Part shown: piece by piece, positions 42 to 25,453 of the stretch | Numbering within the stretch: the first letter of the stretch is position 1 | Layout of the letters: the number at the start of each line of letters is the position of its first letter | Source: Flavisolibacter longurius | GTDB taxonomy: Bacteria > Bacteroidota > Bacteroidia > Chitinophagales > Chitinophagaceae | Direction of reading: 5' to 3' | NCBI GenBank assembly: GCA_014163555.1 | Contig: JACJGO010000007.1 | Location: 62,001-126,000 of the forward strand | DNA: 64,000 nt | Program-made: the position numbers and the translations under genes | The notes under the pieces: generated by a model | What the model saw: only the letters and a program-made list of their open reading frames with translations | The model's database searches: none | Told to the model about the DNA's origin: nothing

Positions 42-3000
42 ATGAAAAGACTTTTACTTTTCTCCCTGGTCCTGTGGACCCATGGCCTCAATGCGCAAAA
101 AACCGCGCAGTTTATTTCCCTCTCCGAAAATGGCTGGGTAACCGCAGCCAACTGGTCAACTTTCTCCCGTCCGGGTGCTACTGATATTGCCTCTTTTGGC
201 CTGTTGCCCAGCGGAAGTGGTTCCAACAATGGTTGTGTTATCAACTTTAATGACCCTTCCTTCGCTGCAAAAGAATTGGCCGTCGGCGCCATCCGGGTGT
301 TACCTGTCCGCTTACAGGATATGAATATCGGTAACGCTTCGCCCAACAGCGATGGCACTCTGGTCTTAAACGGGCTAACCATCAATAATATACCTGGCGT
401 AGTGGTAGATAACCAGATGCCACTGAACGCTCTAAACCTGAAGGAAGGGATCGTTGGAAACAACCGCTTATTAAATATTGCCCTTGGACAAGAAGCTGTG
501 TTTCTCGGGGTACCGGGAAGCACTACCGAAATCAGCGCCAAGGTTTCCGTCGCCGGTAACGTAACCGTGAACGGCGGAACGCTGAAACTGGCCCGCACCA
601 GTGGTTTTACGTTCCCGGAGACCACCAATTTTAAGGTAGCCAGCGGCACTTTACGCATCAGCACCAACCAGGTTATCAATGACCTGGACCTGGCCCCGGG
701 ATCTATCCTTCAGATCGATGACAATGCCACCCTTACGGTAACCGGAAACTTTTACCAGCGGGGCGCCACCATCCTAAAAACAGGAACGGGCAAAGTGGAT
801 TATACTGCTTCCGGAACCTTGGAATACGTAGGTCTTTTGCCCCAGACCGTCAGCAGCATCGAATGGCCGGTAAAAGGCGGCCCCAAAGATGTGCTCATTG
901 AAAACAAGATGGGGGTGATCCTGTCCGGTGACCGTACCGTCAGCGGCTCTATCTCCGTAAACGGGTTATTGGTAACCGGTACCCATAAAGCCGCAGCAGG
1001 CACGGTAACCGTCAATAGTGGCGGCATGATAAAGGTAGGTTCCACCAGTTCGCAAGGTGCTTTTGAAGGCGCTTTCGGATCGGCAAAAATTACGTTGAAA
1101 GAAGGATCCTGGGTGGAATACAACGGTGCCGGCCGTCAATATCTTTCCGGCCTGGAATACCAGAACCTGTTTATCGACAATCACGGTTTTGGATTAACGT
1201 TAGCCGGTGATGCCACGGTAAAAGGTGAATTGAAAGTGGATGGATTGCTGGAGTTGCCCGGTGCCACCAAAATCGATCTTGCCGGAAAGGCGCTGACCCT
1301 GGGGGGTACCGTCAACGGTTTGATATCGTACAGAGGTTCTGCTGAATCGGGATTGAATATCGCCACCAAACAGGGGATTGGCACTCTGCATTTTGACCAG
1401 GATGCTGACGGTACTTCCAATGCCTTGTCGCAGTTGTCCATTTCTTCGGGCGCAGCCGTTCTGGGTGGAAAACTTCACCTGTTTACCAGATTGAACGTAG
1501 CCGGGGGCAGTATTGACTTAGACAACAAAAACCTGGTGCTAAAATCAACGGCTCAAAAAACGGCCTATGTGGCCGAGATCAAAGGCACCCTGAAAGGGGA
1601 GACCAATGTAACCGTGGAGCGTTTTTCCCCGGCCTGGTCGGGCCGCCGCTACCGCCTGATGACAGCCCCTGTACTGAATACAACCATCAATGATGCTTGG
1701 CAGGAAGGGGACAAATGGAATGGAAACGGTAGTGCCGGTGGAAATGGATATGGTACTCTCATTACCGGTCAATCGCAGGGATCGGCTGCGAACGCGAACA
1801 AAAACGGGTTTGATTTCTGGAGCGCCATTGCCGGCGGGCAGGCCTCTGTACGCGTATATGTACCGTCTTCGTCGGCCAGCGGTGCCACCTGGCAGGGCAT
1901 CACGTCGACGCTAACCCCCAATGCGTTTGACAACCATGAAGCCTACCTGGTATTTATCCGCGGCGACCGTTCGGTAGCCACGGGTACAACAGCGGGTGCC
2001 GCCACCTTGCGTGGAAACGGGAAATTGAAAAGAGGAAGCTTTACCATCCCGGTACCGGCAAAACAAAGCCATACCCTGGTGGGCAATCCGTATGCCGCGC
2101 CGCTGGACTTTAAACTGGTTTATGATGGCAACAACACAAAGATTCAGCCCCATTTCTGGGCCTGGCAGGCAGGCTTGGGAACAGGAACAGGAGGCTACGT
2201 CCTGGTTCGGCCGGTATCGCCGGGGAGTAGCCTATACGAAGCGATTCCTGGCGACGGTTCCAAATCGGTTTCCAACCGCCTGATCCACTCGGGTGAAGGT
2301 GTTTTTCTTCTCCCGGCAAAAGACGCATCCACCACCAATGCCATCACCATTCAGGAAGCGCACAAAGCCACCGGTACGCCGACAATTTCAATTTTCCGCC
2401 AAATGGGAACGGACGAACCGGCCAAGATTTATGTGAACATGTTAACGACGATAGATGGCAATAAAGCCTTGCTGGATGGGATTATGGCAGAATACAGTGC
2501 AACAGGAAGCAGCACCGGCGTGGGCAAATCCGCCAATGCCACGGAAAACCTTTCGATCCTGCGCAACAGCAGCGACATGATTGTAACCGGCGGTCCGCTG
2601 CCGGCCATTACCGATACGTTGAAATTACGGTTATGGAACACCGTGACCAAAGACTACCAGCTCGCGATCCGGACAGATAATTTTACAGGCACGGGGTTGG
2701 CGCCGGTACTGGTTGACCGTTACCTGCAAACGGAAACACCGGTAAGCACCGGCAGTGATATAACCTATCATAATTTCCAGGTAACGGCCGATGCGGGCTC
2801 CCGGAACCAACAGCGTTTTTACATTAGCTTTCAAAAAAACATTACGCTTCCGTTGGTGATAACCTCTATCCATGCGGAAGTCAAACCGGCCGGCAATGTG
2901 GCGGTTAACTGGCGGGCTGCCGATGAAACGGGCATCACCTCGTACCAGGTTGAGCGTTCCTTCGACGGGAATAACTTTACAACGCTGGCAACCCTCGCGG

Positions 3001-3404
3001 CTCGTGTGGGTTCGGGTGACCAGTCGTATGCTTACCTCGATTCGCAGGCTTCGTTACTGAATTATTACCGGGTTCGCATGACGGGTACAGCTGGGGAAGT
3101 GAAGTATTCAAGTATTGTAAAAACCATGCTCCCAAAAAATAGTGAAAGCTTTACGCTTTATCCCAACCCGGTCAGGGGTTCAAACTTTAACCTGCAGTTT
3201 TTAAACAAACAAAAGGGGACGTATACACTGAACCTTTATACCATCACGGGCCAGGTGGTGATGACAACAACGATTCTACACCGCGGAGGAACGGCAACCG
3301 AGTTGGTGACCCTGGCTGAAAGTGTACGGCCGGGAAACTATAAACTGGAGGTAAAAAGCGAGACTGGGTTAAAAGAATTTCTGACTGTCAGTTTACTAAA
3401 ATAA
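42..3404 (+). CDS. Giant secreted surface protein 1 with T9SS sorting domain
   Basis: Predicted 1120-residue exported protein. Residues 1-18 form a signal peptide with a Lys-Arg n-region, a Leu-rich core and a cleavage site near NA|Q. Residues about 20-520 are Gly/Thr/Asn/Val-rich with repeated short beta-strand patterns (GTLxxNG, VEYNGAG), as in beta-helix or adhesin-like passengers. From about residue 523 comes a roughly 600-residue module shared with the three other giants in this window: [65 protein letters not shown] fibronectin-like stretch (YQVERSFDG) follows, then a type A T9SS sorting domain at about 1037-1120 with LYPNPV. Only 41 bases precede the start, so its promoter is probably outside the window. 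A hairpin terminator follows the stop. The protein is likely exported by Sec and the T9SS and anchored at the surface. Its molecular function is not known; adhesin or matrix protein is an inference. Confidence 0.9.
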   Translation: MKRLLLFSLVLWTHGLNAQKTAQFISLSENGWVTAANWSTFSRPGATDIASFGLLPSGSGSNNGCVINFNDPSFAAKELAVGAIRVLPVRLQDMNIGNASPNSDGTLVLNGLTINNIPGVVVDNQMPLNALNLKEGIVGNNRLLNIALGQEAVFLGVPGSTTEISAKVSVAGNVTVNGGTLKLARTSGFTFPETTNFKVASGTLRISTNQVINDLDLAPGSILQIDDNATLTVTGNFYQRGATILKTGTGKVDYTASGTLEYVGLLPQTVSSIEWPVKGGPKDVLIENKMGVILSGDRTVSGSISVNGLLVTGTHKAAAGTVTVNSGGMIKVGSTSSQGAFEGAFGSAKITLKEGSWVEYNGAGRQYLSGLEYQNLFIDNHGFGLTLAGDATVKGELKVDGLLELPGATKIDLAGKALTLGGTVNGLISYRGSAESGLNIATKQGIGTLHFDQDADGTSNALSQLSISSGAAVLGGKLHLFTRLNVAGGSIDLDNKNLVLKSTAQKTAYVAEIKGTLKGETNVTVERFSPAWSGRRYRLMTAPVLNTTINDAWQEGDKWNGNGSAGGNGYGTLITGQSQGSAANANKNGFDFWSAIAGGQASVRVYVPSSSASGATWQGITSTLTPNAFDNHEAYLVFIRGDRSVATGTTAGAATLRGNGKLKRGSFTIPVPAKQSHTLVGNPYAAPLDFKLVYDGNNTKIQPHFWAWQAGLGTGTGGYVLVRPVSPGSSLYEAIPGDGSKSVSNRLIHSGEGVFLLPAKDASTTNAITIQEAHKATGTPTISIFRQMGTDEPAKIYVNMLTTIDGNKALLDGIMAEYSATGSSTGVGKSANATENLSILRNSSDMIVTGGPLPAITDTLKLRLWNTVTKDYQLAIRTDNFTGTGLAPVLVDRYLQTETPVSTGSDITYHNFQVTADAGSRNQQRFYISFQKNITLPLVITSIHAEVKPAGNVAVNWRAADETGITSYQVERSFDGNNFTTLATLAARVGSGDQSYAYLDSQASLLNYYRVRMTGTAGEVKYSSIVKTMLPKNSESFTLYPNPVRGSNFNLQFLNKQKGTYTLNLYTITGQVVMTTTILHRGGTATELVTLAESVRPGNYKLEVKSETGLKEFLTVSLLK

Positions 3405-3443
3405 ACACCAAAAAACAATTTTTTCTCAATTAAATATGATAAG

Positions 3444-3484
3444 AGGAGTTACAAATATTCAATTTTGTAGCTCCTTTTTCTTTT
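3444..3484 (+). terminator. Rho-independent terminator after giant protein 1
   Basis: An 11-bp stem pairs GGAGTTACAAA (3445-3455) with TTTGTAGCTCC (3464-3474), with one G-T wobble and an 8-base loop, followed by TTTTTCTTTT. It lies about 40 bases after the stop of the first giant gene and before the small downstream gene, so the two are probably separate transcripts. Confidence 0.85.
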
Positions 3485-3518
3485 AGCCCTGTTATTAACA
3501 ATGCGGATATTTTTCTGC

Positions 3519-3538
3519 TATATTTGAGTTTAATTTTG
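3519..3538 (+). promoter_or_regulatory. Candidate tandem Bacteroidota -7 boxes before the PID-CTERM-like gene
   Basis: TATATTTG (3519-3526) and TAATTTTG (3531-3538) both match the TAnnTTTG -7 consensus known from Bacteroidota. No clear TTTG -33 box sits at the right distance, and both boxes are very close to the ATG at 3543, so the second would give an almost leaderless message. The region is AT-rich, so chance matches are possible. Confidence 0.3.
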
Positions 3539-3542
3539 GTGT

Positions 3543-3848
3543 ATGTGGATTGATCGGAAATTCCTTATTGTATTTTTTCTTCTACTGGGATCTTTTTCCT
3601 TGGGAATACAAAAGGCTTCTGCACAATTTGGTGACCCACCTTCTGATGATGATCCGCCTACGGGCGATTGTTATGTAATTTGTAATCCCGATACCGGCGA
3701 GTGTCCTCCGTTACCACCGCATTGCATTCCGATAGATGGCGGCTTGGCTTTATTACTGGCTGCCGGTGCTGGATATGGTTTTTTACGAAATCGCCCATCG
3801 AATCGAAGAGACCAGAGTGATACCCCAAAACACGACTGCAAATATTAA
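3543..3848 (+). CDS. Small PID-CTERM-like surface-sorted protein
   Basis: Predicted 101-residue protein. Residues 1-27 form a signal peptide (hydrophobic core FLIVFFLLLGSF, cleavage near ASA|Q). The short mature part is rich in Pro, Asp and Cys (DDDPPTGDCYVICNPDTGEC). Near the C-terminus comes PIDGGLALLLAAGAGYG, followed by a basic stretch (FLRNRPSNRR). This has the layout of the PID-CTERM tail known in Bacteroidota: PIDGG motif, short hydrophobic helix, positive cluster, which is thought to be a protein-sorting signal. An unusual point is that the tail continues about 20 residues past the helix. No sorting enzyme is visible in the window. It stands alone between a terminator upstream and a 436-base gap downstream. 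The signal peptide and tail are clear; any role in the cell envelope is inference. Confidence 0.75.
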   Translation: MWIDRKFLIVFFLLLGSFSLGIQKASAQFGDPPSDDDPPTGDCYVICNPDTGECPPLPPHCIPIDGGLALLLAAGAGYGFLRNRPSNRRDQSDTPKHDCKY

Positions 3849-4284
3849 TTCTATTCTATTCAAGACACGGAAGCAAACGTCATGAAATGAAATTGATTCG
3901 ATTCTAATCCGTCAATTTACTTTCAGCTCATGTTATAATTTACGAAAAGAACATTTCGCTTCCTTTTTACGATAGTTATAAAAGTAATGTACATCGTAAC
4001 GCCAGACAGTCTTCCATTCAGTTTTCAATATTTGATGTATTGGAAGATAGGTTGGCAGTAAGAATAAATTTTTATAAATTATTATAAAAATTTATATTTG
4101 TTTTCGTGTGCCTGCCTTGCTGCTTTCTGCTCGAACGCAACCAATATCAGAACAGACCTCTTGCTGACCTTTTCACGGATAGAATAGCCAGGACCTAGTT
4201 AAACAGGTCCACAGATTCTGGCAATCGATTGTTTCCTATGGATGCCTTAAGCGTACCGATTAGGACAACAAAACCAACTGCAAT
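3849..4284. other. Non-coding leader of giant protein 2
   Basis: This 436-base stretch has no convincing gene. Its first part is AT-rich. Around 4063-4100 there is a run of A/T with a self-complementary AAATTTTTATAA / TTATAAAAATTT stretch, ending in a TATATTTG box. The last 180 bases are of mixed composition and would be the 5' untranslated leader of the next giant gene. Confidence 0.6.
4093..4100 (+). promoter_or_regulatory. Candidate -7 box for giant protein 2
   Basis: TATATTTG matches TAnnTTTG exactly, 185 bases before the ATG at 4285. There is no good TTTG -33 box at 17-20 bases upstream; the region there is a run of A and T. An in-frame stop at 4261-4263 shows that the long leader is not translated in the gene's own frame. 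Confidence 0.35.
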
Positions 4285-7200
4285 ATGAATCATCCTGCTG
4301 CCTCTATTCTTCTTGTGGCTTGTTCAGCTGTGCCTTTACTGCATACCATAGCACAACAAACCATTTCTGTCGTCAACACACCAATTGTGCAAAACTTTAA
4401 CACCCTGCCCGGCACCGGTGCTGACTTGCCTGCAATGGGCAGCATCTTCACGGAAGGATGGTCCTTTCTGGAAAACGGCACGGCCAAAAATGCACTTTTT
4501 GGGACCGGCAATGGCAGCAGCAATACAGGTGACACTTATAGTTTTGGTACCACAGCCAGCATAGAAAGAGCCTTTGGTATGCTGCAATCCGGCAGTGTAA
4601 CCACCATCATCGGCTATAAATTCATGAACAATACAGGCCAAACCATTTCCTCGATCCGGATCGGGTTTGCAGGAGAACTGTGGCGGTTTAGTGCTTCGGC
4701 CGATGCCTTGGCCTTTTCTTACCAGGTGGGTAATGTCGCACTGGATGCCGGAACGGGTTGGAACCTTGTATCTGCACTTTTGTTTTCCACGCCGGCTACG
4801 GGAACTGGTATGGTGGATGGAAACAGCTCCACCTATCGAACGGCCCTCTCCCCGGTAACAATTACGGGATTGACGATAGCGCCGGGTGCGGTAGTAACCT
4901 TCCGCTGGGTCGATGCCACCGCTACAAATTCAGCCGGCATGGCCATCGATGATTTTAGCCTGACGCTTTTTCCGGCTTTTACCGGTTATTTCAGGAGCCG
5001 CGGAAGTGGCGATTGGAATGACGCCAACGCCTGGGAGATCAGCAACGATAACCTTTCGTGGTCACCAACAGCCACGGTGGTGCCGTCAAGCCTCGCAGCA
5101 GGTATCATGGTCCAGACGAACCATACCCTGGCCATAACCAACAACACCTCTGTCAATAAACTATCCGTTCAACCAGGTGGGAAACTGGTCTGGTTAGCTG
5201 GAACCTTAACGGTAGCAGATGGGCCGGGAGAGGACTTTGTCATACAGGGTGCGGGCAGCGAATGGGAAGTGGCTACCAATGCAAGTCCTGTACTTATAGG
5301 GGCAGCCTCTGTTCGGGTAGGGTCGGGCGCCATACTAAAACTGAACGGCACCAATAATGTTTTAGCCTATCACGGCAATGCGTACACGTATGGCGACAAA
5401 GCCGTCTTTGAATACAGTAACACGGCTTCGCCAAACATCACCGGTACATTTTTTAGCCTGCAGGATGCCGGTGCCATTCCCGTTTTCCGGTACAATTCAC
5501 CCGTACTAACTTCTCTCGGCGGAAGCGGGGCGACCGTGGTGAATGGAAGGGTAGAGATAGTAACGGGGAGAACGCTTAACCTGAATGGGGTAACAGGAGC
5601 CCTGGTTCTGCGAAACGGAATAACCGGCGATGGGAACATCAGTTCACTGACCAACATGCAACTAACAGGTTCTACCGCTATTCTCGGAGGTACAGGCACG
5701 ATAAACTCTCACCTGACCATTCAGCCGGGTTGCACTGCCACTGTTCTTGCCGATAAGGTTTTTTCAGCGGGCCGAAACATAACGGTAAACGGGGTTCTGG
5801 ATTTCGAAATACGTCAGTTTCGAACGGTTTCCGGAACGGCTACGCTTGTTAACAATGCAACAGGCGTTCTCAAAACGGCAAGTCCTTTTGGTTTACTTTC
5901 CGAAAACGGTTCCCTGAAAACGGGTGCCTTCACCCTGAATTTTTCAGCCGGTTCTACGGTTGAATATACCGCAGCAGCTAACCAGCAGGTTTCCATCCTC
6001 AATGTACCGGCCTACCAAAATCTTCTTCTTTCCGGTATGGGTACAAAATCAGTGCAAAGTGGCGGAAACCTGGTTATACAGTCCGCCTGCACGATACAAC
6101 CGGGTTCTATTCTGGCATTAACCGGTAACGCTGCTGAAAATGTATACCTGAACAACAATGCATTGCTGGATGTCAAAGCGGGGGCCACCTTCGACAACGG
6201 TGGTGAAAGCAGCATCACCGCCTCCGCAGGAACGCCTTCTGTTCTGATTGCGGGAACTTTCCGCACAAGGGATGCGCAGGGCTTTACCGGGTCCGGTGCG
6301 GCTATCCCTTCCATCATTCCGGTGCTCTCCAATGGGTCCACCATCGAATACGGTCGGTCTGGCGATCAGGACATCCAGGCAACCCTGACCTACCATCACC
6401 TGGCCTGCAGTGGAGCCGGTATCAAAACGCCTTCAAACGCTGTTACGCTGAACGGTACGGTAACGGTTAGTGAATCAGCGGTGTTGAATGGCGCTTTCCA
6501 CACAATCGGTGGCCCTCTCAATAACCTGGTCATGACAGGAACAAGCCGCCTGGTTGTCGGTGTTACGGGAACCCAGCCGGCTATGGGAGGAAATTATTCA
6601 CTTTCATCCGGAACGACCATCGAATTTGCCAACAATAACAATACGACGGCAACCATCCGGCAGGGCGGTAGTCCTGTTATTTCGTATGCAAACATCGAGA
6701 TAACCGGAAGCAACATAACGGCGCCGCACAGTGGCATCACGCTGCAAGCGGGTGCAACCTTCAGCGTGAAAAACGGCGGCACGCTGAAGCTGACGTCCGT
6801 TAACGGCCTGCATGCCGCTTCCGGTGCGGCGGTTCTCACCAGCAATTCGCCGGCACTTGTTTTGGAACCCGGGTCTACCATCGAATACGGTGGCGGGGCG
6901 CAATCCATCACCAGTCTGGCGTACCATCATCTCATTATCTCCGGCACGGGGGCTAAAACGGCTTCAACCCCGTTTTCGGTTTCGCAAACCTTTACCCGGA
7001 GTGGTGATGCCACCTTGCTCGGAAACAGCCCGGTGTATGGCGCGGGAGCCACCCTTGCGTATGTTGACGGTGCCGCGGGGCGTACCTACACGCAGGTGTT
7101 GGAGTGGCCGGTGGTTTATCCACCGCAAAACATACGGGTAAATTTAACCGGTTCTGGCCTGCCAGCCTTGCGGTTAAATAGGAACCAGGCAATTCCGGGA

Positions 7201-9357
7201 GACGTCACCCTGGTAGCCGGTTCCCTGCAGCTGGACGGCTATCACCTCGAAATCAGCGGAAGTCTGTCCGGCGGCGGAACACTAACAGGGAGCCCTGTTT
7301 CTGCATTGACGTTTCAGGACGGCAACAGTACGGTAAGGTTTACCCAGTCGGTAGACGGAACCTCCAATGCGTTGGCTTCGCTGGCAGTCAGGAAAGGGGC
7401 CATTCGGCTGGGGAATAGGCTTCAGGTTTACGAAGTTTTGGACCTTGCAGGTGGCAGCCTGGATCTGAATCATCAATCACTCGTGTTGAAATCCGGCCCG
7501 GTACAAACCGCACGGGTAGCGGAACGCAAAGGAGCGTTAGTGAACGCAACAAACGTAACGGTGGAACGCTATATAGCGGGTACGTATCCGCGTCGGTGGC
7601 GGCTGCTCACGGCTCCTGTCACCGGAGGCTCTGTCCAGGCAGCCTGGCAGGAGGGGCGAACCTGGAACGGTGGTGCCAGTGATAATGCTTCGCCGGGCTA
7701 TGGAACACTGATCACCGGGCAGCAACAAGGCACGGCCGTTGTGGCCAATGCAGCGGGTTTTGATTTCTGGACCCAGGTCGCCGGTGCCCAGGCATCCATC
7801 CGGCGGTACCAGGGTAGTTCGTCATCTTCGGCCGCTTCCTGGCAACCGTTGTCCTCAACACATGCCTACAATTTTACCAACGGGGAGGCTTATTTGCTTT
7901 TTGTTCGCGGCGACCGTTCCGTTTCGGTTTCTGGTGGCGGAAGTACCGTGCTAAGAGCCACAGGTGGGCTGAAAGAATTCTCCACCATAACCGTTCCGGT
8001 AAATACGACAAATAGCCATACGCTGGTAGGCAACCCCTATGCGTCACCGTTGCATTTCCGTAAACTCCACCAGGATAATGCAGGCGTCATAAAGCCTTAT
8101 TTCTGGATCTGGCAGGCAGCCTTGTCCGCTACCGGCGGCTATGCCCTGGTAAAACCGGTTACTGAAGGAAGTGCGTTTTACGAAGTAATCCCCTCCGGAA
8201 GCAATGTGGGTACACCCGTGGAGCCGGTTATTCATTCGGGGCAAGGTTTCTTTGTGGTTCCCGCAGTGGCGCCAACGTCTTCGAATCTGGTGATTCAGCA
8301 GGCACACAAAACGGCGGATAATCCTACGGTCTCCGTCTTGCGGGAAACAGGTGGGGAACCTGCGAAACTATACATAAATTTTTTTGCATCCGGCAGTAAC
8401 GAGGAGACCTTGCTTGATGGCGTTTTGTTGCAGTGGGAAAAGGATGCCAATCGCCTTCCGCTGGAAAGTATTGGCAAAGCCATAAACAGTGGCGAAAATC
8501 TCTCTATTCATCAACCGGGCAAAGACTGGCTGGTAAAGCAGGAGCCAATGCCGGACAGGGATGGTGAAATTCAGTTGCGGATCTGGAACACAACGCCGCG
8601 TACCTATAAATTTCAGATAAGCTGTCAAAATCTGGGTGGGCAGGGCCAACGGCTCTGGTTATTGGATCGTTACCGGGAGAAAGAAATACCGCTGATTCCG
8701 GGCAACTCGAGCCATGCATACGAGTTTACCATCAACAGCGAGGAGGCTTCCCGTGACCCGCTTCGGTTTAAAATCATTTACAGGGTTTCGGTGACACTTC
8801 CGCTACCGGTGCAACTGACCAACCTGAAAGTGGTAGAGAAAGAAAACGGTGTGCAGGTAGCCTGGGAGGGAAGGGGCGAAGAGCGGAAAGGGTCGTATAC
8901 GATCGAACGGTCACCGGATGGGCAGCATTTCTTACCGTTAGGCAAACTGCCTGCGAAAGGAGGCGCAGGCCCCAACGCGTATGCCTTCCCGGACCTTCAG
9001 CCATTGCCTCTAAATTTTTACCGGGTAAAGTGCGAAGAAGCAGATGGATCCTACCACTATTCCGCCGTGGTAAAATGGGCCAAAGGGACGGTTAGGGAAG
9101 GTGTTGTGATTTTTCCCAATCCTGTAACAGGCGGCAAGATGCAGGTGCAGCTGCGGGCAAAGCCCAAAGGTCGGTATAAGTTTCTTGTGTATACGCTGGA
9201 TGGCAAGGCGGTCTGGCAGCATCCTTTTGACCATGTCGGCGGTACGGCGACCCTTGTTTTGGACACCGGTAGAAACTGGCCGGCTGGCATTTACACAATG
9301 GAGATCAGGTGTGTAGGAGGGAAGCCAGAGCGTCTGGCTATTTTTTATTGGCCGTAA
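4285..9357 (+). CDS. Giant secreted surface protein 2 with T9SS sorting domain
   Basis: Predicted 1690-residue exported protein. The N-terminus has a hydrophobic export signal ending near TIAQ, unusual in having no Lys or Arg before the core. The start is fixed by an in-frame stop 24 bases upstream. Residues about 25-230 look like a beta-sandwich (NFNTLPGTG at the start, AIDDFSLT at the end), resembling domains at the N-termini of other secreted Bacteroidota proteins. SGDWNDANAWE (about 237) opens a long parallel-beta, Gly/Thr/Asn-rich stretch with repeated GSTIEYGG-like rungs up to about 1090. The conserved C-terminal module covers about 1091-1600 ([67 protein letters not shown]). The T9SS sorting domain is at about 1608-1690 (IFPNPV). 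Surface anchoring is well supported; the ligand or function is unknown. Confidence 0.9.
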   Translation: MNHPAASILLVACSAVPLLHTIAQQTISVVNTPIVQNFNTLPGTGADLPAMGSIFTEGWSFLENGTAKNALFGTGNGSSNTGDTYSFGTTASIERAFGMLQSGSVTTIIGYKFMNNTGQTISSIRIGFAGELWRFSASADALAFSYQVGNVALDAGTGWNLVSALLFSTPATGTGMVDGNSSTYRTALSPVTITGLTIAPGAVVTFRWVDATATNSAGMAIDDFSLTLFPAFTGYFRSRGSGDWNDANAWEISNDNLSWSPTATVVPSSLAAGIMVQTNHTLAITNNTSVNKLSVQPGGKLVWLAGTLTVADGPGEDFVIQGAGSEWEVATNASPVLIGAASVRVGSGAILKLNGTNNVLAYHGNAYTYGDKAVFEYSNTASPNITGTFFSLQDAGAIPVFRYNSPVLTSLGGSGATVVNGRVEIVTGRTLNLNGVTGALVLRNGITGDGNISSLTNMQLTGSTAILGGTGTINSHLTIQPGCTATVLADKVFSAGRNITVNGVLDFEIRQFRTVSGTATLVNNATGVLKTASPFGLLSENGSLKTGAFTLNFSAGSTVEYTAAANQQVSILNVPAYQNLLLSGMGTKSVQSGGNLVIQSACTIQPGSILALTGNAAENVYLNNNALLDVKAGATFDNGGESSITASAGTPSVLIAGTFRTRDAQGFTGSGAAIPSIIPVLSNGSTIEYGRSGDQDIQATLTYHHLACSGAGIKTPSNAVTLNGTVTVSESAVLNGAFHTIGGPLNNLVMTGTSRLVVGVTGTQPAMGGNYSLSSGTTIEFANNNNTTATIRQGGSPVISYANIEITGSNITAPHSGITLQAGATFSVKNGGTLKLTSVNGLHAASGAAVLTSNSPALVLEPGSTIEYGGGAQSITSLAYHHLIISGTGAKTASTPFSVSQTFTRSGDATLLGNSPVYGAGATLAYVDGAAGRTYTQVLEWPVVYPPQNIRVNLTGSGLPALRLNRNQAIPGDVTLVAGSLQLDGYHLEISGSLSGGGTLTGSPVSALTFQDGNSTVRFTQSVDGTSNALASLAVRKGAIRLGNRLQVYEVLDLAGGSLDLNHQSLVLKSGPVQTARVAERKGALVNATNVTVERYIAGTYPRRWRLLTAPVTGGSVQAAWQEGRTWNGGASDNASPGYGTLITGQQQGTAVVANAAGFDFWTQVAGAQASIRRYQGSSSSSAASWQPLSSTHAYNFTNGEAYLLFVRGDRSVSVSGGGSTVLRATGGLKEFSTITVPVNTTNSHTLVGNPYASPLHFRKLHQDNAGVIKPYFWIWQAALSATGGYALVKPVTEGSAFYEVIPSGSNVGTPVEPVIHSGQGFFVVPAVAPTSSNLVIQQAHKTADNPTVSVLRETGGEPAKLYINFFASGSNEETLLDGVLLQWEKDANRLPLESIGKAINSGENLSIHQPGKDWLVKQEPMPDRDGEIQLRIWNTTPRTYKFQISCQNLGGQGQRLWLLDRYREKEIPLIPGNSSHAYEFTINSEEASRDPLRFKIIYRVSVTLPLPVQLTNLKVVEKENGVQVAWEGRGEERKGSYTIERSPDGQHFLPLGKLPAKGGAGPNAYAFPDLQPLPLNFYRVKCEEADGSYHYSAVVKWAKGTVREGVVIFPNPVTGGKMQVQLRAKPKGRYKFLVYTLDGKAVWQHPFDHVGGTATLVLDTGRNWPAGIYTMEIRCVGGKPERLAIFYWP

Positions 9358-16000: not shown

Positions 16001-19000
16001 GTCAGGGCAAGCTTTGCTTCCAATACCATCACCATTTCCGGTACGCCCACACAAGCGGGTAGCTTTGCCTATAGCATTTCGCTGACTGGCGGTTGCGGTT
16101 CGATCAACGCCACCGGCACAATCACGGTCACTCCGGTTTCGGTAGGCGGAAGCATTACACCTGCTGCCGTCTCCCTTTGTTCCACCGAACCCGGTGGCGA
16201 CCTGACGGTCAGCGGTTACACAGGGGACATCAAAATGTGGCAATACTCAACCGACGGCGGGGCGAACTGGATAAACATTACCAATACATCCAATACACAG
16301 CCGTATACGTCTGCTAGAACAACACTCTACCGGGCTGTTATACAAAACGGTCCCTGCAGCGTTGCTTATTCCAGTACAACCCTGATCAGTGTTATCGGGC
16401 CGGTCCCTCCGGTAGTCAGTGCCTCGCCGGCCACCATCTGCCTGGGGGAAACCTCGACACTCACCGCCCTAACGCCCGGCTTCCTTACTGCTGGAGATGT
16501 AGACGGTACATTTAACCAGGCAAACCCCGACGGGTGGCGGGTAACTGACAACGGAAAGGAAATCAAGTTTCCTGCCGATGCGAACAATGCCAGTACCTTC
16601 CCCTGGAGTGAAACCAATGGTCCCAAAACGCCGTTCAACGGTGGCACCACCTACGATAACCTGCAAACAGACGGGAAATTTGCAATTGCTTCGGGCACCG
16701 GTACCACCACCCTGGAATCGCCTGTTTTCAGTACGGTAGGCATGACATCGGCTGCCTTTGAATTATACCAGGCCCTTGTGTTTGCAGCAGGAGCCAGCGG
16801 CACAATTGAGCTCTCGACTGATGGTGGTGTCAACTACACCACGACCTTAGCACAATACACGGGGCCATTGTCCATTGGTACCCCTGCCAGCAGCTGGGAG
16901 AAGCTAAGTCTCGACTTATCCGCTTTCCTGGGCCAGACCAGTCTCCGGATCCGTTTTACCTATAAGGGTGCCAACAACAGCAACTGGGCGATCGACGGAA
17001 TGAAGATCCCTGGCCCGGGCCCCAACGTACATTATGCCTGGGTACCCACCAACGGTTTACCGCCTTCTGAAGGTAAAACAGTAACGGTTTCACCAACGTC
17101 TACAACTACCTACAACTTATCAACCACCATCAGCGGCTGTCCGGGTGGCATGACGCCGGTAACCGTGAACGTTAGACCCTTACCAACGGCTACCATGACG
17201 GTGAGCTCCACGGACGTTTGCGAGGGCGGCCCTGCGCCTTCATTGACCTTTACCGGCGCCACCGGCACAGCTCCCTATACGTTTACCTATACCGTAAATG
17301 GGGCTACGCAAACCATCAAGACTTCCTCAGGTAACAGCGTTACCATTACCCTGCCCACCACCACAGCAGGCACCTTTACGTATAACCTGGTAAGCGTAAG
17401 CGAAAGTTCGTCCACAACGTGTTCGCAGGCACAAAGTACGACACGTGTCATTAAGGTAAATCCAAGGCCTACGGCCACCATCAGCGGCGGCGCTGCCGTT
17501 TGCCAGAATGCTACCGCCCCGTCAGTTACCTTCACCGGTACCAATGGAACAGCCCCCTATACATTTACCTACACGGATCCAACGGGTGCAACAAAAACGA
17601 TCACCTCGCAGGGTACGAGTAACAGCGTTACATTGCCGCAATCCACTGCAACGGCAGGTACTTACACCTATACACTGGTGAGTGTACAGGATGCTTCATC
17701 AACCACCTGCGCACGGACCATCACAGGACAAACGGCATCCATCATCGTTGACCCTGAAACAGTCATTTCGGGCACCATCACCGGAACAAGAAACTACTGT
17801 CTGACCAATAGTGCAACACCGTTAACAGTTAACGCTTTCGGTAAGGGACTATCTTACCAGTGGTATACAATGGCAGGCCAGGTTCCTGCTCCGGCTACCG
17901 ATCCGAAAGTCGGAAATAACAGCAATTCCTTCACACCGCCGATAGCGGAAGGCACGACCAGCTATTATGTTGTTATTACGGGTGCTTGCGGGATGGCAAC
18001 AAGTGAGATTGTACCGGTAACCGTAATTCCGCCACTGACCCTCACACAGCAGGCGCCGGTAACGCCATGTTACCAGACCGAAGTAAAAATGACCGTTTTG
18101 GCTTCTGTGCCATCGAGGGTAATAAAATACCAGTGGTTCAAAATGGTAGGGTCCACCCGTAACCCAGCCGCCGATACAAAAATTGGTACCAACAGCCCGA
18201 CGTTTACAATCGCTTCCGTTACGGCTGCCGATAACGGGAACTATTACCTGGAAGTAACCGGCAATGCACCCTGTAGTGAGGTGCTGTATTCTGATCCGAT
18301 TACGATCAACAGCTCCACAACAGATGTCACCACCTGGGTCTCTTCTACGGAAGACCCTACCGAATGGCACCTGGAAAAAAACTGGACCTGTGGTATCCCT
18401 AACCTATACCGGGATGCGATTGTGCCCATTTCCTTTAATAATCAGTATCCCTACATCAACAACGATCCCGCTTTGCCTGGTCAAACAAGAGACCTTCGCA
18501 TTGATGCAGGTGGGCCCAAAGTAACACTGGATGGTCTTCTCCAAATGGCGGGGAATGTAACCAATAACGGTAACCTGGATGCTTATCTGACGGGGACTAC
18601 CAGTACGGGTACTCTTGAATTTGTCTCCAATATTAATTTTGGTTCTTATCCTTCCAATGACCCTGCTTCTGAACTGAAGACGCTGGCCGGCACGGGTTCG
18701 ACACAAACCCAACATCTCCGGATCAGCCGAAATGTTTCGTTCGCGAAGGCTGTTGATGTTTACGGAAAAGTTATGTTCGGGGGCAGCAACAGAACCTTAG
18801 CGACGGGTGATATACTCACATTAAAATCTGTTTCATCGCTGGTGAGTGCCATGGTCACCGACCGGACCAATAACGGAACGGTATCGAACAATGCAATCAA
18901 TGGACAGGTCACCGTAGAGCGTTTTATCGATGGCGCTCTGGGCCGCAAATTCCGGGTAGTAACAGCTCCGGTAAAAGACGTTACCATCAACAAAGCCTGG

Positions 19001-20722
19001 CAGGAGGGCATGACGATGAACAACGGAAGCCATGTTTTATTGGGCACCAACACACCGGTTACGCCGCCAACGGGTTTTGGCACCCTGATCACAGGAGGAG
19101 GGGCTCTCTATCCAACTGCCAGCGCAGCCAATGCTGCCGGATTTGATTTCTGGGATGCCATTGCTGGTGGAACAGCATCGATTAATACGTATACCGGCAA
19201 TCCCGATTGGCGTCAGGCACGGTGGACACCTGTGACAACGACAAAAACAACGGGTTATAACGATCACCAGGCGTACCTGATTTATATTCGCGGCGACCGC
19301 TTCAAGGATATTGGGACTGCCAGCAATCACACCGTTTTGCGGCCGAAGGGTTCCTTGAAAGAAGAACTGGAACACCAGTTTACAGTCCACGCAACCAATT
19401 CCCATACGCTCGTTGGCAACCCGTACGCCTCGCCGCTCGATTTCCGCAAAATTTACAAGGCCAATATTCCCTCTATACAGCCTTATTATTGGATCTGGCA
19501 GGCAGTGCTAACCGCTTCCTGGGGTGGGTATGCCGTAATAAGGCCACAAGCTGCGGGAAGCGACGAGTACGAAATGATTCCTTATGAGTCCACGACAGCC
19601 ACAAAAGTGGAACCAATCATCAGCTCCGGGCAGGGCTTCTTTGTGATCCGTGCCACCAGTCCAACCAGCCCGACCATGACCATCCATCAAACCCACAAAT
19701 CGGATGGCAACTCTAAAATTTCCGTTTTCCGTGAAACCGGTGAGAAGCCTAAGAAGCTTTTTGTAAATGTCTACACGCCGGCAAGCATTGGAGGAGAAGC
19801 CGTGTTGCTGGATGGGGTACTGGCTGAATTTACCAGTGAGGATAAAAAAACAGGGATCAGTAAAATGTTACAATCCGGCGAGAACCTGTCGGTTTGGAAA
19901 AATAGCCGTGATCTGATCGTATCGGTGGATGCACTTCCGCAGGTAGGAGATAAGGTGCAGTTGAAACTCTGGAATACCAGTGTTAAAGGGTACCGTTTGG
20001 GCATTAAGAGCGCCAATTTTAGCGTTCCGGGTGTGGCGGCCTACCTCGAAGACAAGTTTCTGGGTACCGAAACCCTGATCACACCGGGTGATGCCATCAC
20101 CACCTACGACTTCCAGGTAACGGGGCAGGCGGCATCCAGAGATCCTCAGCGGTTCGCCATTGTATTCAAAGTGGCACCGCTGCCGGTAGTAACCCTAGAA
20201 GGCATTGAAAACAGAAATGGTGTCAAACTGCAATGGCAGGCTGCCGAAGACCTCACCGTTGCGTATTATGAACTGGAAAAATCAATCGATGGTGCTGCCT
20301 TTACAACGATTAACAAGACGGCTTCCCGCCGCCGTGCCGAAACCCAGCAATACGATCATCTCGACGGGCAGGCGGCCATGCAGGCACGGTACCGGGTGAA
20401 AATGACGGGTGTCACAGGAGCTGTTGGCTATTCCAATATAGTAACGGTGGAATTGAAACAAGCCTCCGGTCTCACCATTTACCCCAACCCGGTTACGGGT
20501 CAGACCGCCAGCCTGCAGTTCACCGCCAAGCCAAGGGGCCGGTACAATATAATCGTGTATGCACCCACAGGGCAGCAGGTGGCCAGCCAGGTGGTTGAGC
20601 ACAACGGTGGCATGGGAATCTATGAGATTTCGGTGGGCAATTTGGCAAGTGGTTCCTACACCCTGGAAGTGTGGCATCCCGATAACCGGAAAGAAAAAAT
20701 CCGGTTGGTGATTACGCATTAA
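10097..20722 (+). CDS. Very large (3541 aa) modular surface protein with T9SS sorting domain
   Basis: Domain order: signal peptide (1-29, cleavage near TYG|Q); glycine-rich head (about 50-235, many GGGGG runs); a long array of Ig/PKD-like modules of roughly 80-100 residues, each with a Cys near VCxG and a linker like TVNPLPT (about 240-2120); an inserted beta-sandwich resembling jelly-roll/MAM-type domains (about 2128-2305, ends [11 protein letters not shown]); more modules; an Ig-like pair (about 2560-2740, YQWFKM); a [13 protein letters not shown] stretch introducing beta-helix-like sequence; the shared C-terminal module (about 2937-3450: [52 protein letters not shown]); and the T9SS domain (about 3458-3541, IYPNPV). 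Two repeat pairs at DNA level lie inside it. A strong terminator follows. It is a probable long stalk-like adhesin; this is inferred from architecture only. The exact repeats make assembly errors possible here. Confidence 0.92.
11066..12168 (+). repeat. 1.1-kb direct repeat, copy 1
   Basis: 1103 bases that recur at 13034-14136 with no difference found by eye. The distance between copies is 1968 bases, exactly 656 codons, so both copies are read in the same frame (residues about 324-691 here). The unit starts at ACGGCTTCTATCACGG and ends at CCCTGCCAAC. It covers about four Ig/PKD-like modules. Confidence 0.9.
13034..14136 (+). repeat. 1.1-kb direct repeat, copy 2
   Basis: Second copy of the 1103-base unit (residues about 980-1347), separated from the first by 865 bases of unrelated module sequence. 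Identity at third codon positions points to recent duplication or ongoing gene conversion, not to selection on the protein alone. Confidence 0.9.
14978..15213 (+). repeat. 98-codon tandem module, copy 1
   Basis: 236 bases starting at CCGTTGCCAACGGCC that recur 294 bases later (98 codons). One difference was seen: C at 15001 against T at 15295. The unit encodes an Ig/PKD-like module with [19 protein letters not shown]. More diverged relatives lie at about 17,180-17,740. Confidence 0.85.
15272..15507 (+). repeat. 98-codon tandem module, copy 2
   Basis: Second copy of the 294-base-period tandem module. After position 15507 the two copies diverge at once (GCCACCTCC in copy 1, GCTTCTTC in copy 2). 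Confidence 0.85.
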
Positions 20723-20742: not shown

Positions 20743-20803
20743 GGCCGGGCAGCAAACCAAAACCGGAAAATAATTTCAGGTGGTTTGTTGTCCGGCCTTT
20801 TTT
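20743..20803 (+). terminator. Strong Rho-independent terminator after giant protein 3
   Basis: A 17-bp stem pairs GGCCGGGCAGCAAACCA (20743-20759) with TGGTTTGTTGTCCGGCC (20781-20797), with two G-T wobbles, followed by TTTTTT. It lies 20 bases after the stop codon. Confidence 0.92.
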
Positions 20804-21367: not shown

Positions 21368-24300
21368 ATGAAGAAATTTTACATGCCTTCTGCTTGTGCA
21401 AACGGTATTGTTTTTAGTCCCGTTTTCTTTCTTATCTGTACAGGCAATTTTTTCCGAAAAGCAGCAGGCTTCCTGGCCTTTGCCCTTTTTTCATTTTTCT
21501 TTTCCAACGGACAAAACGCTACGGCTACCTGGTCCCTGACCAGCACATCCAATGTGGCGATCACTGGAAACCTGTTAACCAACAGTACCAATATGGCAAA
21601 GGGTTCCGGGCTTGTTTTCACCAATTATACAGGCAATGCTTACGGTGTGAGAGACGGGGTCACAAGCAGCCTGTCTGCCGCAAAGGCGGCTGATGACTAC
21701 CTTCAGTTCAGCGTAGCTCCTGCTGCCGGCTTTACCTTCACGCTGGGTAGCATCAGCAGCACCCTCAGTGTCTCGGATGTAGCCCCCACCAACAACGCGA
21801 GGTACCAGGTTCAGTATTCTACGTCGTCTACCTTTAGTAACAACGTGGTGAACCTTGGCAATACCGAAGCATTGACGATGGGAAGTGTTAGCTTTACCCT
21901 CAATGCGAACATTTTGGTTGGTGCCGGCCAATCCCTATATTTTCGGATCTATTTATGGGGTTTACAGAATACAAATACCACCTTCCGCATCAATAATTTT
22001 AGAATTCAGGGCAACGCCTGCCCGGCCGTTGAAATCAGCTATCCAAAAGCTGCGTTCTGCAAAGACCCGGGAGCTACAGCAACGCCTACCCGCACGGGCA
22101 CAGCAGGCGGCACCTATTCCGCACCGGCCGGCCTCGTGATGAACAGCAGTACGGGAGTGGTCGATCTGGCGGCCAGTACAGCCGGTACATATACGGTTAC
22201 CTATACCGCTGCGACAGGAATTGCCGGTTGCGCCACCGTATCAGCTACCACCAATGTAACTGTAAACGATCTTCCTACTGCCTTTACACTGACGGGTCCC
22301 GACGGCGCTACCGGTTCTTTTTGTACCAATGGTACACCGGCTACTTTCACCTTAAGTGGCTCGCAGGAGGGTGTTACTTATACCTTTAATGCCATCAACC
22401 CGGGCGGCAATACTCCTCCCGGACAAAACTTCACGGTAGAAGGGGTGGGTGGAACCCTTGAATTTGTACAGACACCCGATGGAAAATGGAGCTATAAAGT
22501 TACCGGTCAGGATGATGTAACCGGATGTACCAATACCATGCAGGGGTTACTGACAGCAGTAGACGGTCCGAAAGTCACCAGCCAGCCGGAAGCCACTCGT
22601 ACCGTTTGTTCCGGTTCTACAGTAACGTTGACGGTAGGTGTCAGCAACGCAACGTCTCTTGCCTGGGAGGTGAGCCCCAATGGCATGACAAGCTGGACCT
22701 CATTGGCGGCAGGTGGTCAATATTCCATTTCAAAAAACGGGACCAGCTCCACCACGCTGACCATCAGCAATGTCTCGGTTGGGCTGAATGGCTACCGTTA
22801 CCGGGCGGTGTTTGGCGGGCCTTCAGCCTGCCCGATCAATTACAGCGGGGGCACCATGCTGGCTGTTTCCGCTCAGCCGGTGATAGCGACGCAACCGGCT
22901 TCTAAATCCATATGTATCAATAGTAATTTTCAACTGGCCGTTTCAGCACTGTATGGGACTTCTTATCAATGGTATAAGAACGGGGTGCTGCTGACCGGTG
23001 AAACCGGGACAACCCTAACACGCAGTTTTACCTCTGCCTCAGAAGCCGGCACCTACTACGTAATGGTTACCGGGAGCTGCGGGTCTGTTCGGTCAAATGA
23101 TGCAATAATGAGTGCGAATACAACACCGACATCTACCACCTGGCAAGGCCCCGTCCCGGGAGCAAACACCGGCAATGGCACAGCCTGGGAAGTGTCGGCG
23201 AACTGGAGCTGTGGTGTGCCTACCCGCACCATCGATGCCATCATTCCAGCTGATATCATGGATGGTTTTCCTACCATCAAGCCGGCGGTTAGCGGAGAAG
23301 TGCGGAACCTTACCATCCAGGCGGGGGCCCTTGGCGGTTTCCTTACCGTAGATGGCAGGTTACAAATTTTCGGTGCCGTTAGCAACAGTGGGGTGTTCAC
23401 GGCCGACAACGGAACCATTGAATACAGCGGCAGTACAGCGCAGACCATTGCAGCCAATACGTTTGCTAACAACACCGTAAAGAATCTGGTAATTAGCAAC
23501 AACGTAAGTCTGAACGGCCCACTCAATCTTACCGGAACACTTTCCTTCGGTGAAGTAAACAATAGAATTTTTACAACCAATCATCACCTGACGCTGGCCT
23601 CATCGGCCTCCGTTACGGCCAGAATAGCGGATATCACAAACAATGGTGTAAATGCGGGTAATGCAATTACCGGCAATGTTGTGGTAGAACGGTTTATTCC
23701 GCAGCACAGCAGCCGCCGTTACCGGCTGGTTACGGCGCCCGTTAAAGGCGTTAGCATTAACCAGGCCTGGCAGGAAGGCCGCACCTGGAATGGTGTTACG
23801 ACCGAAACAAGCGGCAATGGTACCCTGATTACCGGTCAGCAGCAAGGGACAGCCACTAATGCCGCTTCAAAAGGGTTTGATTTTTGGCCGGCAATCGCCG
23901 GGGGCGGCGCTTCTGTACGCAAATATGTGGGTTCATCTTCCGCCTCCAGCAATATCGACGCTACCTTTGCGCCGGTAGACAATACCGTTACCGCTGGTTT
24001 TTCCAGCCACGAAGCCTACCTCGTGTATATACGGGGCGACCGCTCGGTCTCTACCGGTACCGCGGCAGGCAGTGCCCTTCTTCGCGCCAAAGGGCCCCTG
24101 AAGCAGGAAACGGCTTATACCATTCCGGTTTCCAATACGCAAAGCCATACCCTGATCGGCAACCCTTATGCTTCTCCCATCAATTTCCAGAAACTATACG
24201 CTGATAACAGCACAAAGATTCAACCGTGGTACTGGACCTGGCAGGCAAGCCTCGGCAGCAATATGGGCGGTTATGTACTGATGCTTCCCGATGGAGAAGG

Positions 24301-25453
24301 TGGCTATGAGCCCGTACCATCCGTCAGTGGCAGTTCTACCCAACCAGTTATTGGTTCTGGTGAAGGGTTTTTTGTGGTGCCGGCCCCAGGTGCGGCTGCC
24401 GGCAATGCAATCCTGCTGAAAGAAATGCACAAGGATAATAATCGTCCGACATTAGCTCTTTTCCGCCAGGCAGGCCCTACGGCCGCAAAGGTCCGGGTCA
24501 ATCTTTTTGCCCAGCTCAATGGCGAAAAAACCCTGTTGGATGGTGTGTCCGCTCGGTTTGGGGAAGGTCAAAACATTAACCTTAACAAAGCTGTCAATAC
24601 AGGGGAGAACCTGACAATTTGGAAGGGTGGAAAAGACATGATTGTTGCCAGCAGCAGCCTGGCCCAGGCCGGGGATTCCATCCAGCTTCGTTTCTGGAAC
24701 CTGGCGGCCCGGTCGTACACCCTTGAACTGGGCAACAACCGCCTGCCCCAGGGTGTGCAGGCCGTACTCTTCGACCGGTACCGGGGTACAGAAACAGCCC
24801 TGGGAGCAGGTCCTGAAACCGTTTATTCTTTCGAGGTCAATGCCGATGCCGGAAGCAAGGCACCTCTTCGGTTTGTCATCCGTTTTAAAAAACATCAGGT
24901 GCTCCCGGTAAAGCTTGTTTCGTTTACAGCGCAGCAGGGAACGAAAGCCGTGAGCCTGGAATGGAAAGTAGAAGAAGAGGGGGCCGTACGGGATTACACA
25001 GTAGAAAGAAAAGGCGAGATGGGTGAATTTACACCGGTGCTGACACAGGCGGCCCGTGGTGCAGTTGGCGCTCAGGTCTATGGGGAAAGCGACAGGAACC
25101 CCATCGCGATGGCCTATTACCGGCTCAAAATCCGGGAGCATTCGGGTGCCTTTCATTACTCTGATATTGTGAGGGTGCAAAGCGGGCAACCTGCAGGAAC
25201 CGTTTCTCTTTATCCAAACCCGGTTCAGGGCAAAACAGTAAATCTGCAGATGGGTGCGAAACCAAAAGCTGTGTATACACTGACCATGTATTCACCCGCT
25301 GGCCAGGTGGTGGCAATCAGGGACATACAACACGCGGGGAACAGTGCCGTTTACCCCGTTTCCGTACAGGCATTGGCCAGCGGAACCTACCTGCTGGAAC
25401 TCACCGATGCTGGCGGCAAAAAGGAGAGAATGCAATTGGTGGTAGCAAAGTAA
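21368..25453 (+). CDS. Giant secreted surface protein 4 with T9SS sorting domain
   Basis: Predicted 1361-residue exported protein. The N-terminus is long: a hydrophobic stretch at about 12-26, then a second (FLAFALFSFFF) with cleavage near SNG|Q at about residue 49. The true signal peptide may start at a later codon. Residues about 50-215 form a beta-sandwich-like N-domain. Ig/PKD-like modules follow to about 580 (ITVNDLPT-type linkers, a SYQWYKNG Ig-like segment at about 535). WEVSANWSCGVPTRTID introduces a beta-helix-like stretch. The shared module runs from about 770 (VVERF, RRYRLVTAPV, AWQEGRTWNG, GFDFW, RGDRSV, SHTLIGNPYASP, WYWTWQA, GEGFFVVPA). The T9SS domain is at about 1279-1361 (LYPNPV). 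It is the last giant before the polysaccharide operon. Export and anchoring are well supported; function is unknown. Confidence 0.9.
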   Translation: MKKFYMPSACANGIVFSPVFFLICTGNFFRKAAGFLAFALFSFFFSNGQNATATWSLTSTSNVAITGNLLTNSTNMAKGSGLVFTNYTGNAYGVRDGVTSSLSAAKAADDYLQFSVAPAAGFTFTLGSISSTLSVSDVAPTNNARYQVQYSTSSTFSNNVVNLGNTEALTMGSVSFTLNANILVGAGQSLYFRIYLWGLQNTNTTFRINNFRIQGNACPAVEISYPKAAFCKDPGATATPTRTGTAGGTYSAPAGLVMNSSTGVVDLAASTAGTYTVTYTAATGIAGCATVSATTNVTVNDLPTAFTLTGPDGATGSFCTNGTPATFTLSGSQEGVTYTFNAINPGGNTPPGQNFTVEGVGGTLEFVQTPDGKWSYKVTGQDDVTGCTNTMQGLLTAVDGPKVTSQPEATRTVCSGSTVTLTVGVSNATSLAWEVSPNGMTSWTSLAAGGQYSISKNGTSSTTLTISNVSVGLNGYRYRAVFGGPSACPINYSGGTMLAVSAQPVIATQPASKSICINSNFQLAVSALYGTSYQWYKNGVLLTGETGTTLTRSFTSASEAGTYYVMVTGSCGSVRSNDAIMSANTTPTSTTWQGPVPGANTGNGTAWEVSANWSCGVPTRTIDAIIPADIMDGFPTIKPAVSGEVRNLTIQAGALGGFLTVDGRLQIFGAVSNSGVFTADNGTIEYSGSTAQTIAANTFANNTVKNLVISNNVSLNGPLNLTGTLSFGEVNNRIFTTNHHLTLASSASVTARIADITNNGVNAGNAITGNVVVERFIPQHSSRRYRLVTAPVKGVSINQAWQEGRTWNGVTTETSGNGTLITGQQQGTATNAASKGFDFWPAIAGGGASVRKYVGSSSASSNIDATFAPVDNTVTAGFSSHEAYLVYIRGDRSVSTGTAAGSALLRAKGPLKQETAYTIPVSNTQSHTLIGNPYASPINFQKLYADNSTKIQPWYWTWQASLGSNMGGYVLMLPDGEGGYEPVPSVSGSSTQPVIGSGEGFFVVPAPGAAAGNAILLKEMHKDNNRPTLALFRQAGPTAAKVRVNLFAQLNGEKTLLDGVSARFGEGQNINLNKAVNTGENLTIWKGGKDMIVASSSLAQAGDSIQLRFWNLAARSYTLELGNNRLPQGVQAVLFDRYRGTETALGAGPETVYSFEVNADAGSKAPLRFVIRFKKHQVLPVKLVSFTAQQGTKAVSLEWKVEEEGAVRDYTVERKGEMGEFTPVLTQAARGAVGAQVYGESDRNPIAMAYYRLKIREHSGAFHYSDIVRVQSGQPAGTVSLYPNPVQGKTVNLQMGAKPKAVYTLTMYSPAGQVVAIRDIQHAGNSAVYPVSVQALASGTYLLELTDAGGKKERMQLVVAK

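Follow-up and report, generated by a model that had tools for sequence, protein, structure and literature searches.

Four giant predicted type IX secretion proteins of Flavisolibacter share an unnamed C-terminal core and precede one lineage of Wza-Wzc polysaccharide operons

In the type IX secretion system (T9SS), the type A sorting tail of a cargo protein is cleaved and the protein is then attached to a surface glycolipid. In the type A cargo protein RgpB, an Ig-type domain lies ahead of the C-terminal domain (CTD) and is proposed to act as a spacer (PMC4804311). The present study concerns an array of four giant, predicted secreted proteins, P1–P4, encoded within a 64,000-nucleotide stretch of a Flavisolibacter genome (contig JACJGO010000007.1, positions 62,001 to 126,000; the window). 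They resemble RgpB in having an Ig/FN3-type (fibronectin-like) spacer before the C-terminal sorting tail, but they add a core of ~405 residues ahead of the spacer, and their passenger is a giant repeat protein rather than a peptidase.

The polysaccharide cluster that follows the array, which we take to be a Bacteroidota Wza/Wzc/UpxY capsule or exopolysaccharide operon, shares with that class wza, wzc, a NusG-like gene, glycosyltransferases and an ABC-2 exporter; it differs in having an array of giant secreted proteins at its head, in one operon lineage. The PEP-CTERM/exosortase loci beside exopolysaccharide genes, described in part in PMC7468200, also tie sorted surface proteins genetically to a polysaccharide, but the tail here is that of T9SS, no exosortase was recognised among the scanned window proteins, and the locus is not a member of that group. 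The gliding adhesins SprB and RemA are likewise surface adhesins of a T9SS bacterium. RemA of Flavobacterium johnsoniae is tied to exopolysaccharide on neighbouring cells, and a title cited in the same source describes it as a mobile lectin of the cell surface (PMC8481357). P1–P4, for which an adhesin role is suggested below, differ in that no lectin domain was found, in their type A tail and in being encoded as an array before wza. The features of the array are as follows.

42..3404, + strand: P1, 1120 residues; signal-peptide-like start, repeats of presumed beta-solenoid-like shape, core, FN3-like domain, T9SS CTD
4285..9357, + strand: P2, 1690 residues; signal-peptide-like start, repeats of presumed beta-solenoid-like shape (weak G8 match), core, FN3-like domain, CTD
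10097..20722, + strand: P3, 3541 residues; glycine-rich domain, eight Ig_7 stretches, other Ig/PKD-like matches, core, FN3-like domain, CTD
21368..25453, + strand: P4, 1361 residues; Ig_3 domains, core, FN3-like domain, CTD
1608..2828, + strand: core of P1 (VERF ... RFYI), from alignment and core profile
7555..8778, + strand: core of P2, from alignment and core profile
18908..20164, + strand: core of P3, from alignment and core profile
23678..24883, + strand: core of P4, from alignment and core profile
2829..3401, + strand: FN3-like domain and T9SS type A CTD of P1
8779..9354, + strand: FN3-like domain and CTD of P2
20165..20719, + strand: FN3-like domain and CTD of P3
24884..25450, + strand: FN3-like domain and T9SS type A CTD of P4

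The four open reading frames (ORFs) lie where the first-pass annotation of the window had placed them, and the shared block of ~600 C-terminal residues that it described aligns end to end over 623 columns, with a mean column identity of 61% and with the P2–P4 blocks 42–45% identical to that of P1. The blocks begin at residues 523, 1091, 2938 and 771 of P1–P4, the first two exactly as annotated and the last two displaced by one; all of the motifs that had been listed are present in the order given, except that P4 reads GNGTLITG and P2 reads FPNPV. When the 598-residue P1 block was compared with its own genome, the other three blocks were matched at E values of 1e-135 to 1e-146. Chance or low-complexity similarity is ruled out by the full-length alignment and its identity of 42–45%. 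The first 60 residues of all four proteins are signal-peptide-like, as judged by eye. The N-terminal halves had been said to differ, which holds only in part: similarity extends upstream of the block within pairs, over a further ~160–290 residues common to P1 and P2 and ~270–500 common to P3 and P4. P3 also contains a direct repeat of 1.1 kb (window 11066–12187 and 13034–14155, 99.4% identity) and a second of 239 bp (14975–15213 and 15269–15507, 99.2% identity), which by their near identity represent a recent internal duplication of P3 repeats.

The block is a composite of the ~405-residue core, a fibronectin-like domain of ~100 residues that is optional elsewhere, and the T9SS type A CTD, and only its last ~75 residues are assigned to a named family, the sorting domain TIGR04183. 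A search of the whole genome with a core-only profile of 406 positions gave exactly four copies, those of P1–P4. Another 20 places in this genome match the P1 block only from query residue 328 on, and these are mostly FN3-like and CTD pieces. The 53 distinct cores taken from the fetched loci have a median pairwise identity of 32%, and 50 of them adjoin the C terminus, with only 86–195 residues beyond the core; two of the remaining three are truncated where their locus ends, and the third has a second core after it in the same ORF. The core is trailed either by 185–195 residues corresponding to FN3-like domain plus CTD (31 of 53 copies) or by 86–123 residues corresponding to the CTD alone (19 of 53), and the FN3-like part is therefore optional. 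Conservation reaches ~30 residues upstream of the VER motif, where a segment with the pattern LTLKS..TARVA...G caps a ladder of short repeats that has the look of a beta-solenoid.

Proteins of 351–455 residues consist only of the latter half of the core (model positions ~250–395), the FN3-like domain and the CTD; since such half-core proteins exist, the core has at least two parts. Those found as solo genes (L130, L131, L153, L167 and L172) have little or no passenger and lie beside wza or beside arrays. Two other variants were seen: three copies from the genus (L086, L087 and L093) have the start of the core replaced by a CHRD-like stretch with the pattern NFHT..F.GGEIRGQI, and a single ORF of 2627 residues carries two tandem cores (genome G466, contig C5:159563-162415, locus L066).

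The view that the module is much larger than the sorting domain and has no family name was borne out, as no Pfam or NCBIfam model covers the ~405-residue core. Neither collection gave a match above cut-off for the core when P1–P4 were scanned, and 12 core members compared with both at E values up to 10 gave no consistent match, the best single E value being 0.023. Among PDB sequences the core was unmatched and only the C-terminal FN3-like and CTD parts were hit, at an E value of 0.016 at best. A known domain under another name was thus not found in Pfam, NCBIfam or the PDB sequences, and the open-access literature searched yielded no published account of either the domain or the arrays. Two AlphaFold2 models built with 12 usable sequences (mean predicted local distance difference test scores of 66.7 and 57.7) gave a usable structure for the second half of the core, the FN3-like domain and the CTD. 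Foldseek searches with the first model returned generic beta-sandwich matches, among them the T9SS proteins PorU (rank 14, TM-score to the query 0.13) and PorZ (rank 39, TM-score 0.11).

By homology P1–P4 are predicted cargo of T9SS with type A tails (Por_Secre_tail, TIGR04183). In the protein scan the tails of P1 and P4 score 29.5 and 35.7 bits, above the TIGR04183 cut-off of 23 bits, and those of P2 and P3 score 19.3 and 20.4 bits, below it; in the genome search P2 and P3 reach 23.8 and 28.8 bits, and all four CTDs pass. The genome also encodes SprA (TIGR04189, 2412 bits). It contains 68 sorting-tail matches, and only the four in P1–P4 carry the core. About 13.8 kb past the window end lies an ORF of 235 residues (L098:13795-14502, contig C55) that resembles the block at its end alone, over the FN3-like domain and sorting tail; it is 40% identical to P4 over 115 residues, the match to this genome's own sequence at that place spans a TGA codon, and the ORF is perhaps a remnant.

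The array is conserved in the genus. In F. longurius (G535, JABUMY010000022) P1-P2-P3-P4 are followed by wza, wzc, a NusG-like gene, AsnB, a glycosyltransferase, an ABC-2 subunit, extra genes and an ATPase. In F. nicotianae (G532, NZ_RBCI01000013/14) P1-P2 occupy one contig end, P3-wza-wzc-AsnB another, and P4 is elsewhere; no NusG-like (upxY) match was found there between wzc and AsnB. All twelve cores from three species of the genus fall in one clade (100/100), within which they group by array position and not by species. The P2, P3 and P4 groups each have an ultrafast bootstrap of 100 and values of 93–99 in the Shimodaira-Hasegawa-like approximate likelihood ratio test, and the P1 group is weak (81/8). 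Homogenisation of the cores by recombination within an array was not seen; the cores pair with their orthologues. Judged by these groupings, the array is older than the split of the three species.

The passengers had been described as swapped and the module as mobile or conserved. Neither swapping nor mobility agrees with the grouping of cores by position or with the conservation of the P2–P4 passengers, which is about that of the cores. The N-terminal parts of P2–P4 are 45–66% identical between species where aligned (for P3, whose orthologues are cut by locus or contig ends, over about 2000 of 2937 residues), and the cores are 48–70% identical. The P1 N-terminal part, 32–39% identical between species as against 57–68% for its core, looks either replaced or fast-evolving and is the sole fit to a swapped passenger among the four. 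The FN3-like and CTD tails of P2 and P4 are only 34–38% identical between species, and that of F. nicotianae P4 has no FN3-like part. These identities indicate that the core and most passengers are stable and that two of the four proteins have a tail that either drifts or has been exchanged.

The array stands directly ahead of the polysaccharide operon (wza at 25815, wzc at 26578), as had been proposed, and the same placement recurs in other genera. Among 394 genomes of the family, 17 loci encode a Wzc at least 49% identical to that of the window (clade A), and in 11 of the 15 evaluable loci wza is preceded by a core-bearing gene with the same orientation. In eight of these (the window, G535, G532, G333, G526, G655, G675 and G579) a full-core gene ends 361–542 bp before wza, and in three (G483, G420 and G582) the upstream gene encodes a half-core protein at 837–1559 bp. 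Of the 26 listed loci fetched for clade B, the next-closest operons (36–42% identity), 24 had at least 3.9 kb of upstream sequence and none of the 24 has a core gene within 5 kb upstream of wza; in one clade B locus, G636, a half-core ORF lies 9.2 kb away. Two loci of each clade were left out because they had under 0.6 kb of upstream sequence. The difference between the clades gives a Fisher exact probability of 8e-7 by locus and of 0.0045 by genus (3/3 versus 0/9), and only the latter allows in part for relatedness. The polysaccharide link is therefore real but specific to one Wza-Wzc operon lineage. In the window, the operon comprises the following.

25815..26570, + strand: Wza-type polysaccharide export protein (Poly_export, SLBB)
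26578..29034, + strand: Wzc-type protein (AAA_31, GNVR, weak Wzz), which defines operon clade A
29375..30007, + strand: NusG-family (UpxY-like) antiterminator
30437..32257, + strand: AsnB-type glutamine amidotransferase
32226..33419, + strand: group 1 glycosyltransferase
33587..34516, + strand: ABC-2 polysaccharide exporter membrane subunit (Wzm-like)
35350..36609, + strand: ABC exporter ATPase (Wzt/TagH-like)
36596..62090, + strand: remaining polysaccharide cluster, with glycosyltransferases, FkbM methyltransferases, WbsX, GT61 and several ORFs with no family match

Arrays of four or five core genes precede wza in two genera, that of the window and another represented by G526, G655 and G675. 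(i) G526 has four full core genes (3328, 2152 and 2261 residues, the fourth in an open frame of 2158). (ii) G655 has five, in open frames of 1448–4263. (iii) G675 has four together with half-core proteins. Every full core gene in these three arrays is oriented towards the operon. In G354, from a further genus, a core gene is divergent from a Poly_export gene 0.4 kb away. For the trees, identical cores, the duplicate loci L001–L032 and eight short genus loci, and cores under 330 positions or 60 bits were dropped, and a tree of 74 cores also leaves out the three distant rows L043, L048 and L051. On that tree the wza-linked cores require 7 label changes, as compared with a mean of 17.8 after shuffling, and the eight linked cores of genus g4, a group named after the first tree was seen, are rejected as one clade by the approximately unbiased test (p = 6e-5). 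As the linked cores do not form a single clade, inheritance of one gene does not explain the arrangement, which is tied to the operon lineage while its genes turn over.

We tentatively favor the explanation that P1–P4 are surface adhesins or matrix proteins built on a shared membrane-proximal stalk base and used alongside one specific capsule or exopolysaccharide. The core, the tail, SprA, the synteny of array and operon and its recurrence in three genera are observed, and from them we infer surface tethering, the stalk geometry and the partnership with the polysaccharide. P1–P4 would cross the outer membrane through T9SS, and the C-terminal tail would, by homology, be cut off and the protein tethered to the surface glycolipid. 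The ~405-residue core, sometimes with a fibronectin-like spacer, would form the membrane-proximal base of a stalk, and the passenger its far end, composed of beta-solenoid-like repeats in P1 and P2 and of Ig-type repeats in P3 and P4. The array would have expanded in the genus before the three species split, and would have been kept at the head of one Wza/Wzc operon through joint use with its capsule or exopolysaccharide, such that the proteins hold, cross or bind the sugar layer. Joint use of proteins and sugar is suggested by the retention of the array before one operon type in three genera. The domain family and the lineage-specific arrangement of array and operon are real; the mechanism is plausible but unproven. 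What is gained is a large and as yet unnamed domain family among the secreted proteins of Bacteroidota, from which a profile could be made immediately, and a recurrent array of giant T9SS proteins tied to one polysaccharide-export operon lineage; the locus offers a concrete, deletable unit for the question of how giant secreted proteins and capsules are organised on the Bacteroidota surface.

Several observations weigh against this explanation. The core matched no carbohydrate-binding family in Pfam and gave no significant fold match in Foldseek (best E value 0.11 for the core model), and the first ~185 modelled residues are unreliable, having no usable structure in either AlphaFold2 model. 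The majority of the listed core copies lie away from wza, which means that the core itself is not polysaccharide-specific. Four of the 15 clade A loci (G091, G033, G635 and G677) have no upstream core gene, and clade A spans only three genera in the sample. The arrays of the second genus are interrupted, in G655 by two small opposite-strand ORFs, in G526 by an opposite-strand half-core gene and in G675 by a 666-residue sorting-tail gene without a core. Co-transcription is doubtful because the gaps in the window are long (361–880 bp), no conserved leader precedes wza across genera, only short pairwise matches among near relatives being found, and a match to the Bacteroidota-type promoter TTG-N-TAnnTTTG starts 110 bp before the wza ORF of the window. 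Transcription of P4 together with wza is thus not supported, though the promoter match is present in only 3 of the 15 gaps examined.

It is possible, though we consider it doubtful, that, in Chitinophagaceae and relatives, the core serves T9SS cargo as a general-purpose C-terminal spacer and that the arrays beside wza are tandem duplications at a variable surface-gene locus with no working tie to the sugar. Among 244 genomes sampled from the same family, 85 (in 41 of 101 genera) have core matches at an E value of 0.001 or better, partial matches included, as do 30 of 296 genomes sampled across the phylum; full-length matches occur also in another family of the same class. The survey scored at most seven candidates per genome, which makes its copy numbers lower bounds; in 14 genomes of at most 10 contigs, for which all candidates were scored, there are up to 26 core matches per genome at an E value of 1e-10. 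In G526 three giant-ORF copies have identical core scores, two of them adjacent (C1:71579 and 82961) and one far off (2512914), probably as a result of recent dispersed duplication.

The first-pass annotation had also called for a count of module copies within 30 kb of polysaccharide genes; the distances from core copies to Poly_export genes gave no support to a general association. Across 30 core-bearing genomes, 9 of the 18 copies listed for the genus have a PF02563 gene at most 30 kb away; outside the genus, among the matches listed, the number is at least 3 of 89 where about 5 are expected, a lower bound because at most seven candidates per genome were scored and the wza-linked copies of G526 were missed. 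In the 14 fully scored genomes, two of which (G655 and G675) had been picked with their clade A operon already known, 15 of the 98 full copies have a Poly_export gene within 30 kb, about 5 being expected, and 12 of the 15 fall in three arrays before one operon type. Without those two genomes the count is 7 of ~70, with 3.5 expected (denominator counted by hand, with one copy more in total than in the count above). Four of 38 Poly_export genes in the 14 genomes are at most 5 kb from a full core, a number reached in 22 of 2000 random placements, with the same selection bias and rough contig offsets. Tandem groups also occur far from any wza, for example three genes in G380, and the arrays are lineage-specific, all of which a general spacer would accommodate. 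It would not by itself account for the presence of same-strand core genes ahead of wza in 11 of 15 clade A loci, from three genera, as against none of 24 clade B loci, or for full-core genes ending 361–542 bp before wza in all eight loci.

A narrower form of the favored explanation, in which the core itself docks onto the polysaccharide of the adjacent operon, is unlikely; arrays of four or five proteins would then show each species' own passengers through or upon its own capsule, and half-core proteins would be base units without passengers. Quite improbable is the idea that the operon makes, wholly or partly, the glycolipid or linking sugar that receives the cleaved T9SS cargo, and that the array adjoins it because it encodes the proteins attached to that glycan. 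An AsnB-type amidotransferase is encoded in the window and in six further clade A loci (G535, G532, G333, G091, G526 and G033), and the operon has an ABC-2 exporter as used for O-antigens. A precedent exists in Porphyromonas gingivalis, where WbpS, a relative of AsnB, is reported to produce the linking sugar in its uronamide form (PMC7468200). However, no AsnB match is present in the fetched stretch after wzc in G675, G483 and G420, and the window AsnB scores 372 bits against TIGR03108 (WbpS-type), below the cut-off of 817, and is instead accepted by the plain asparagine synthase model. No family pointing to WbpA/B/D/E or VimA/E was found among the scanned window proteins (ORFs 60004 and 63442 left out; four other ORFs covered by NCBIfam only), and with 68 sorting-tail matches in the genome a single such locus beside four cargo proteins would be odd. 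Least probable is a role of the core as a folding or secretion aid: by folding first, on the outside, it would draw the long passenger through the T9SS channel, much as conserved C-terminal regions do in autotransporter passengers. The adjacency of core and CTD (50 of 53 copies), the great length and repetitiveness of the passengers (with open frames of up to 4876 residues) and the better conservation of core than tail in P2 and P4 would suit it, but 64 of the 68 sorting-tail matches in the genome, in open frames up to 2148 residues, have no core, and solo half-core proteins have almost no passenger to pull.

Further along the window, the polysaccharide cluster contains five genes for FkbM-type methyltransferases (36596, 37441, 44155, 49927 and 59190), and the glycan of the cluster is, on that account, likely to be methylated.

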